Positions 7,120-35,828 of a DNA stretch of 38,037 nt are shown piece by piece. Location of the stretch: IMG/VR virus record IMGVR_UViG_3300041809_003420, positions 1 through 38,037 of that record. One strand, given 5' to 3'. Source of the DNA: a virus. The position numbers were made by a program, and so were the translations under genes. The notes under the pieces are model-generated. The model had not been told where the DNA came from. It saw only the letters and a program-made list of their open reading frames with translations, and ran no database searches. How positions within the stretch are numbered: position 1 is the stretch's first letter; every line of letters begins with the position of its first letter.

Positions 7120-7284
7120 ATGAACGTAAAACGGGTCATAGCCGCGATCGACAGCGTGACCGACACGCTGAATAATTGCGGCTTCGAGGACCAGGAGCAC
7201 CGCATCGCGCAGCTGAACGATGAGGAAAAGCTGGCCGCTCTCGAGGCGGCCTGGGTCATATTGGCCACACGGGCGTCTCGCTGA
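7120..7284 (+). CDS. Short hypothetical protein, 54 aa
   Basis: A 54-aa gene starting at ATG 7120, six bases after the previous stop. The product is one amphipathic helical unit, starting MNVKRVIAAIDSVTDTL and ending EAAWVILATRASR, with an acidic centre. It is in series with its neighbours, ends three bases before the next ATG, and has no competing gene on the other strand that I would accept. Function unknown. Confidence 0.5.
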   Translation: MNVKRVIAAIDSVTDTLNNCGFEDQEHRIAQLNDEEKLAALEAAWVILATRASR

Positions 7285-7287
7285 GCT

Positions 7288-7467
7288 ATGGGCACGGCCA
7301 CGGCAAACCTGGGAACGCTCCGAGTGACATGCGTGAAGTGTACGCGGTGGGCGCTGATTCCGGCGGAAGACGCGACGGCGGCGCGGCGGCAAGCGAAACA
7401 GTTGGGGTGGGTGTGGGACAGAACGGGAAAGCAGATCTGTCCGAAATGTCCGGCGGTGCGCAAATGA
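7288..7467 (+). CDS. Zinc-ribbon protein, 59 aa
   Basis: A 59-aa protein with two Cys pairs, TCVKC (14-18) and ICPKC (49-53), the pattern of a small treble-clef or zinc-ribbon domain. Between them lies a helix rich in Ala, Arg and Gln and a WVWDRTGK hairpin. It could bind nucleic acid or act as a protein adaptor; a specific role is not known. The stop overlaps the next gene's start (ATGA at 7464-7467), which supports it being translated. Confidence 0.62.
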   Translation: MGTATANLGTLRVTCVKCTRWALIPAEDATAARRQAKQLGWVWDRTGKQICPKCPAVRK

Positions 7468-7793
7468 GCCTGACGCGGATCGCGGTGTTGTCGGTGGCGG
7501 CAGCGCTGGTGCTGGTGGCCTGGCTGGCCCGCGCGCAGGGGCCGGGCGCCATCGTGCAATACACGGGCTGGGGTGAGCGGCTGGACGTATTCCAGACGGC
7601 GAGCCAGACCTTCACTTTGTCGGGAGTGCCGGCGCCGGCGCCGACGCCGCGGGTGATGGTGTTTTTCAACGGGATGCTGATGCTGCAGGGGACGGACTAC
7701 ACGTTGAGCGGGGCAGCTCTGACCTTTACGGGCGCGAATGTGGCGGCCGATCCGAATCCGGTGGTGCAGGTCGCGTATCGGGTGGCGCAGTGA
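7464..7793 (+). CDS. Exported structural-type protein with fibre-like beta domain
   Basis: A 109-aa protein starting at ATG 7464, overlapping the zinc-ribbon gene by four bases. Residues 1-27 look like a Sec signal (SLTRIAVLSVAAALVLVAWLARA). The rest is beta-rich, with VMVFFNGMLMLQGTDYTLSG, a motif common in phage fibre and neck proteins (an F-x-NG turn followed by G-x-DYT). This suggests a virion surface or fibre-attachment role. A signal peptide on such a protein is unusual and is seen in three other genes of this window. Confidence 0.65.
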   Translation: MSLTRIAVLSVAAALVLVAWLARAQGPGAIVQYTGWGERLDVFQTASQTFTLSGVPAPAPTPRVMVFFNGMLMLQGTDYTLSGAALTFTGANVAADPNPVVQVAYRVAQ

Positions 7794-35535: not shown

Positions 35536-35543
35536 AAACTTTT
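35536..35543 (+). repeat. Left 8-bp target duplication AAACTTTT
   Basis: AAACTTTT lies directly outside the left terminal inverted repeat; the same eight bases occur directly outside the right one at 35821-35828. Confidence 0.85.
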
Positions 35544-35820
35544 GGGAATTATATACTTGACTACAGCGCGACCATCGGCGATCCGCACTTGGGGCAAGCG
35601 TAGGGCGGCGGATTCTTTGCCTCGCACTCTCGGCAGAAATCGTGCTGGCATTCGCGCCCTTTGCTCCCTATTGTCCCTCCGCGCTGAAGGGCTTTGTCTA
35701 AGTAGTATCCCTGCGGGTCACTGGATAGCCTGCCGCATCCGTCGCAACGAACCCGATGGGCCTTTCCTCTCACGATTTTACCGATGGCACTCATCTACTG
35801 TAGTCAAGTATATAATTCCC
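35544..35820. mobile_element. 277-bp mini-transposon with 23-bp TIRs and a zinc-ribbon gene
   Basis: The ends at 35544-35566 and 35798-35820 are perfect 23-bp inverted repeats, beginning GGGAATTATA and ending GACTACAG. Both are flanked outside by AAACTTTT (35536-35543 and 35821-35828), an 8-bp target-site duplication. This is the signature of a transposed element. It is far too short for a transposase; its body is the 77-aa zinc-ribbon gene. It sits in the space between two convergent genes and breaks neither. The GGG ends and A/T-rich 8-bp duplication are compatible with IS1595-like elements, but the family is not established. Confidence 0.85.
35561..35794 (-). CDS. Zinc-ribbon protein inside the mini-transposon
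   Basis: A 77-aa protein filling the mini-transposon; its stop codon lies inside the left terminal repeat and its ATG is three bases inside the right one. It has three Cys knuckles: RCDGCGRL (about 16-23), ECQHDFCREC (about 48-57) and ACPKCGSPM (about 66-74), with enough ligands for two zinc ions, as in double zinc ribbons or RING-like folds. A basic N-terminus precedes them. The CDGCG start recalls the zinc-ribbon gene at 36246-36458. Whether it is translated, and whether it aids mobility or is cargo, is unknown. Confidence 0.68.
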   Translation of the reverse strand: MSAIGKIVRGKAHRVRCDGCGRLSSDPQGYYLDKALQRGGTIGSKGRECQHDFCRECEAKNPPPYACPKCGSPMVAL

Positions 35821-35828
35821 AAACTTTT
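35821..35828 (+). repeat. Right 8-bp target duplication AAACTTTT
   Basis: Second copy of AAACTTTT, directly outside the right terminal inverted repeat. Confidence 0.85.

Follow-up and report, generated by a model that had tools for sequence, protein, structure and literature searches.

Can a short DNA segment that encodes one small protein have reached a phage genome by transposition and, if so, which enzyme moved it? The question is raised by a 277-bp segment of an IMG/VR virus record, analysed here as a stretch of 38,037 bp (the window), whose terminase is 42-48% identical to relatives in named phages, uncultured Manatee Spring phages among them. A previous reading, made from the letters alone (the sequence-only reading), had described 23-bp perfect inverted repeats, an identical 8-bp duplication on both sides and a body filled by a single 77-aa frame, and all of these coordinates hold (Table 1). 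As had also been noted, the frame ends with its stop codon inside the left repeat and starts three bases from the right one (ATG at 35792-35794). Between the repeat arms lie 231 bp, and an 88-aa antisense frame likewise spans the element. When up to 3 mismatches are allowed, the 23-mer end has just two matches in the window and none in 100 shuffled versions of the window sequence. The search for an empty-site allele with a single AAACTTTT, which the earlier reading had suggested, was negative: the joined flank was not found, and the flanking 97-aa ORF, which ends 20 bp from the duplication, has no relatives in the viral contigs searched.

Table 1. Features of the window element (positions in the window) and of elements with related ends (record handles)
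Feature	Location	Strand	Remark
Left target-site duplication copy, 8 bp, AAACTTTT	35536..35543		
Left terminal inverted repeat GGGAATTATATACTTGACTACAG, 23 bp	35544..35566	+	IS1595-family type end
Cargo gene, 77 aa	35561..35794	-	C3HC4 (RING-like) Cys/His pattern
Right terminal inverted repeat, 23 bp	35798..35820	-	Cargo-start side; perfect match to left
Right target-site duplication copy AAACTTTT	35821..35828		Identical to left copy
Flanking phage ORF, 97 aa	35849..36142	-	Upstream of and co-directional with cargo
Flanking ORF, 126 aa	35013..35393	+	Other side; converges on insertion site
Contents of six same-end elements	Window; L021; L019		RING-like; 59 aa; crAss001_48
Contents of six same-end elements (continued)	L330; L331; L327		DNA (adenine) methylase-like; cytosine-methylase-like; 191 bp, gene-less; assigned from sequence by eye
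Cargo: N6_N4 methylases	L031, L064, L083, L092, L093, L101		
Cargo: Dam	L040		
Cargo: cytosine (C5) methylase	L055		
Cargo: Mom proteins, two	L037, L083		
Cargo: PTPS/QueD-like protein	L033		
Cargo: DHH phosphoesterase	L005		
Cargo: crAss001_48	L019		267-bp element
Repeat ATG as cargo start	L037; L055; L064, L379		Mom; cytosine methylase; adenine methylases
Repeat ATG as cargo start	L358; L377		D12 methylase; MT-A70
Repeat ATG as cargo start	L262		ASCH-like; slightly different repeat, assigned by eye
Small basic protein beside transposase gene	L025, L059, L061, L098, L099, L110, L124, L263		

The ends of the window element are shared by many others. The search for the 23-bp end elsewhere, proposed by the sequence-only reading, revealed a family: an exact match to 21 bp of the end occurs in 18 other viral contigs. 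That reading had counted a lack of copies elsewhere against mobility; the lack applies to the 77-aa cargo, of which no second copy was found, and clearly not to the ends. For 13 further close pairs, located by reading the ends only and ignoring the flanks, the 8-bp flanks match in 12 cases (11 perfectly, one with 1 mismatch). These flanks differ from site to site, as transposition predicts. One pair of ends (L019, 5388-6223) was left out as an element, since its flanking 8-mers differ. A relaxed search of viral contigs and of bacterial and archaeal genomes, in which pairing required flanking 8-mers with at most 1 mismatch, yielded at least 120 end pairs with 8-bp duplications; the 63 viral and 57 genomic pairs listed are a sample and no census. 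After removal of duplicates, at least 103 distinct elements with a perfect 8-bp duplication were obtained. Among the matches listed, the target duplications of these 103 elements are very AT-rich at nearly every position, and the consensus end is GGGAATTATATACTTGACTCCC. In a control, the reversed pattern was found in 0 of 32 records and the true pattern in all 32. Some of the IMG/VR records are possibly prophages or wrongly assigned. Thirty-base queries gave only chance matches of 16 to 24 bases, and no convincing end, in 50,697 records of named phages, and no match in 72,556 plasmid records. We also observed multi-copy MITEs of 170-175 bp with the same ends and different 8-bp targets (L141, L175 and L200; Oligoflexia bin RHO2_bin_34). 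The window cassette is one of a large family of one-gene cassettes that appears to be undescribed.

Which enzyme moves these elements can be deduced from their larger relatives. Proteins with an ISXO2-like DDE domain (PF12762, 8e-45) and a transposase zinc ribbon (PF12760, 2e-9) are encoded between these ends in many elements, and therefore the family of the mover is IS1595. The full-length elements with matching ends and a transposase that had been sought thus exist. Among the matches listed, transposase sequence is present in 24 of the 63 viral and 38 of the 57 genomic pairs, and dozens of complete elements contain no other recurrent DDE transposase; the remaining 39 viral pairs, including that of the window, have no transposase gene and represent 33 distinct elements. 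The window element shares its terminal repeats and 8-bp duplication with the elements encoding an IS1595 (ISXO2-like) transposase. It encodes no DDE_Tnp_IS1595 transposase itself; a profile search detected no PF12762 protein anywhere in the window, and tblastn no transposase remnant within the element. It is therefore a non-autonomous IS1595 derivative served by a transposase from elsewhere. We propose that an IS1595-type DDE transposase, acting in trans from a complete element with matching ends, would recognise the inverted ends of the cassette, and that its transposition into the phage genome would have duplicated 8 bp. Such an element could reside in the host or in a co-resident phage; an over-threshold transposase was found in just 3 of the 32 virus records that hold transposase-less cassettes. 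The earlier idea of movement in trans by a host transposase with matching ends is borne out as regards a mobile, non-autonomous, gene-carrying unit and the existence of IS1595 transposases with such ends; as for the supplier, the window itself encodes none, and a co-resident phage could provide it as well as the host.

Several further features of the IS1595-type elements deserve mention. In many complete elements, the transposase is accompanied by a small conserved basic protein that may act as an accessory transposition factor (core about 'LDxIADVVLAYRPKPKxKxAKKRKRR'). Long ORFs of 450-700 aa seen in several elements proved to be antisense to transposases. A TnpB-like gene (PF07282/PF01385) occurs alone between IS1595-type ends with 8-bp duplications in L140, L180, L186, L233 and G032. 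The last of these (Caldilineaceae, OY282381.1) has 68 end matches and, as its sole trace of an IS1595 transposase, a 24.7-bit fragment, which looks like the result of amplification of a TnpB cassette with no resident transposase. Copies of the TnpB element at different sites of one genome that has no intact IS1595 transposase fit either dependence on an enzyme acting in trans or later loss of its source. In uncultured Gammaproteobacteria (L138, G034; CATOTD01), 73 IS1595 transposase-domain matches within 3.1 Mb represent a massive expansion of IS1595 elements in G034.

What does the window cassette carry? The 77-aa product had been described as a zinc ribbon with three Cys knuckles; its eight candidate metal ligands are instead spaced C-x2-C-x28-C-x-H-x2-C-x2-C-x9-C-x2-C. 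This C3HC4 arrangement is the textbook ligand order of RING fingers. Such spacing fits just 2 of 19,350 open segments of at least 60 aa in the DNA fetched and, since it is both exact and rare, the cargo is likely a real metal-binding protein, most probably a RING-like adaptor. Pfam matches are sub-threshold (zf-RING_5, 18.5 bits at a cut-off of 27.9; zf-HIT, 19.8 bits at 24.7), the nearest PDB sequences, at E = 1, are RING domains, and a single-sequence AlphaFold2 model, with a mean pLDDT of 43, was uninformative. Homologues were found neither in the viral contigs nor in PHROGs or PDB. The best tblastn matches, from Stenotrophomonas phages, fall on the antisense strand of a tail-fibre gene and are due to chance, and a PriA-like match is insignificant. 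An origin as a leftover of the transposase's own zinc ribbon was ruled out, as no PF12760 match appeared at E up to 1. The GC3 of the gene (0.66) is below that of the resident genes, and no clear ribosome-binding site was found before its ATG.

The sister cassettes carry more recognisable genes. Among the matches listed, the 33 distinct transposase-less viral elements span 235-1,477 bp and mostly contain one plausible open frame, nearly all of them different. The recognisable cargo of the phage cassettes is enriched in DNA-modification genes (Table 1). Across the 32 source records (1,139,670 bp), PF01555 was counted 7 times within cassettes and 8 times elsewhere. With both gene numbers estimated from length, this amounts to 7 of some 42 cassette genes and 8 of some 1,700 other genes (p about 1e-8). 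A possible benefit of such DNA-modification genes to the phage is protection of its DNA against restriction by the host. Most telling for a pool of cassettes is that the same ends hold unrelated contents: the 23-bp end of the window element recurs, with few or no changes, in six elements (its own included) whose contents are all different. Taken together, these comparisons point to a pool, in environmental phages, of nearly identical ends around unrelated single genes, often DNA-modification genes. In one record (L005, 7107-8583), a cassette at 7127-7602 is nested in a terminal repeat of another, which carries a DHH phosphoesterase; the record also holds a third cassette, of 769 bp, with a DNA methylase.

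As to their origin, cassettes may arise when elements containing a transposase plus cargo lose the transposase. This is plausible because complete elements encode further ORFs beside the transposase, and because L034 retains a 52-residue piece of a transposase C-terminus, at 63% identity, next to its cargo gene.

Some ends also contribute to the coding sequence. In the variant end GGGAATTATATAGATGACT[A/C]C, the ATG of the repeat starts several cargo genes (Table 1). The end variant ...GATGACT provides this ATG and the first codons (M-T-P/T/S) in L037, L055, L064, L262, L340, L358, L377 and L379. The window end is a TTG variant, and the cargo ATG is located just inside the repeat.

We consider that the window segment is an IS1595-family mobile insertion cassette with one gene, which entered the phage by transposition using a transposase from elsewhere (probability about 0.86). 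Evidence for its mobility comes from the duplications and from the family to which it belongs. It is unlikely that the segment is a plain MITE, that is, a short internal-deletion derivative of an IS1595 element in which the 77-aa frame is accidental. Similar-sized sister cassettes hold intact, recognisable genes (e.g. crAss001_48 in the 267-bp element of L019), the rare C3HC4 spacing speaks against an accidental frame, and no remnant of a transposase was detected in the element by tblastn, even though gene-poor short elements with these ends do exist (the 170-175 bp Oligoflexia copies and the 191-bp L327), and even though the 77-aa protein has no homologue in the collections searched and no clear ribosome-binding site, and shares the element with the 88-aa antisense frame.

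The identity of the mover might also be questioned, as G032 has many cassettes with these ends and no intact IS1595 transposase, and most cassette-bearing phage records have no transposase. However, absence from a fragmentary record is weak evidence, 8-bp target duplications recur throughout, and the IS1595 type is the only recurrent transposase between these ends in the dozens of complete elements among the matches listed; it is thus very improbable that another DDE enzyme, or a phage recombinase using similar ends, is responsible. The repeat pair could, finally, be a structural or regulatory signal of the phage (a terminator, or a replication or packaging site), and its position between convergent genes, where bidirectional terminators are common, would suit this explanation. 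The wide spacing of the arms and the exact flanking duplication speak against such a signal, and the recurrence of this arrangement in contigs, and around genes, that are unrelated to each other refutes it in practice.

The cassettes show a preference in their insertion sites. In joined flanks, the interior of long frames is avoided (mean percentile 0.32, p 8e-4), and the cassettes prefer the stop codon of a flanking gene, with the cargo usually co-directional. Among the matches listed, in 15 of 30 transposase-less elements a flanking ORF has its stop codon at the insertion or just before it, whereas sites of equal AT-richness in the same contigs would lead one to expect 5.9 (p 6.5e-5). Such cases are defined by a 12-bp rule, outside which the window element, at 20 bp, falls. 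Where it could be assigned, for some cassettes by judgement, the direction of the cargo is that of the flanking gene in 11 cases and opposite in 1. In a second set, defined solely by the GATGACT end variant and partly overlapping the first, 16 of 72 are at a stop codon (5.3 expected, p 4e-4), and the direction bias is weak (8 upstream versus 5 on the other side, 36 pairs). In L085/L266, the duplicated CAATAAAT holds the TAA of the upstream gene and the AT of the downstream ATG, and therefore both neighbours remain intact. A possible empty site for L085/L114 was not counted: a 41%-identical relative of the upstream gene lacks the cassette, but the next gene differs. Since the window cargo is co-directional with the minus-strand gene and the insertion lies 20 bp past the stop codon of that gene, read-through transcription may occur, and the cargo would thereby become an extra gene at the end of an operon.

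These observations lead us to a broader, tentative model, to which we give slightly less than even odds: a pool of one-gene cassettes would circulate in uncultivated phages, moved in trans by IS1595 transposases of the host or of co-resident phages, adding genes to operons at stop codons, with some ends supplying the start codon, and exchanging anti-restriction genes between unrelated phages. Gene exchange between unrelated phages is usually ascribed to recombinases or illegitimate recombination. The single-gene cassette family offers a concrete and testable route by which phages could gain methyltransferases, Mom and other accessory genes singly. Metagenomes can moreover be searched with the end sequence for cargo of this kind, small proteins overlooked by gene callers included. 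As no cassette was found in the named phage and plasmid collections, the system may have escaped isolate-based work.

Among known systems, the closest are mobile insertion cassettes (MICs), defined as passenger genes between inverted repeats, with no transposase and usually with a target duplication; trans mobilisation of MIC231 of Bacillus cereus by the IS231A transposase has been reported (PMC3913671). The sequence-only reading had regarded a gene-carrying non-autonomous unit as unusual, a view to be revised, as this type is already known under that name (PMC3913671). Inverted repeats, an 8-bp duplication and a passenger gene with no transposase gene are all present in the window element, just as MIC231 and mic-qnrD / mic-qnrS2 combine a passenger gene in IS-type repeats with a target duplication and no transposase. 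The elements described here differ in having IS1595 ends (IS231 ends in MIC231), in residing in phages, and in the many unrelated cargos on near-identical ends, the enrichment in DNA modification and the stop-codon-proximal insertion. Passages of PMC11891212 and PMC3129680 that cite Siguier et al. 2009 give the name transporter ISs (tIS) to those members of the IS1595 family, e.g. ISNha5, that carry passenger genes. Their passenger genes are unrelated to transposition, and our complete elements likewise contain a transposase plus other ORFs; the window element differs from them by having no transposase gene, as do the other transposase-less viral pairs among the matches listed. A passage of PMC8136500 citing Leclercq and Cordaux 2011 states that DDE insertion sequences are regarded as infrequent in phages, and we found no description of IS1595 cassettes in phages in the literature searched, with most subscription journals lying outside this search.

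MITEs of IS elements are similarly short and transposase-less, with the same ends and duplication, and real MITEs with these ends exist, but a putative coding frame fills the window element and its sister elements hold identifiable genes. Integron gene cassettes are likewise single-gene units that have common ends and make up a shared pool, and the presence of several cassettes per genome, as well as the nesting in L005, strengthens this likeness. It is a functional analogy only: integron cassettes depend on attC sites and a tyrosine integrase, whereas the inverted repeats and 8-bp duplications indicate DDE transposition. Phage morons are likewise accessory genes placed between phage genes, but are defined by their own promoter and terminator, and not by transposon ends and target duplications. 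What is surprising in the present case is therefore not the type of element, but the size of the family, its location in phages and its cargo.
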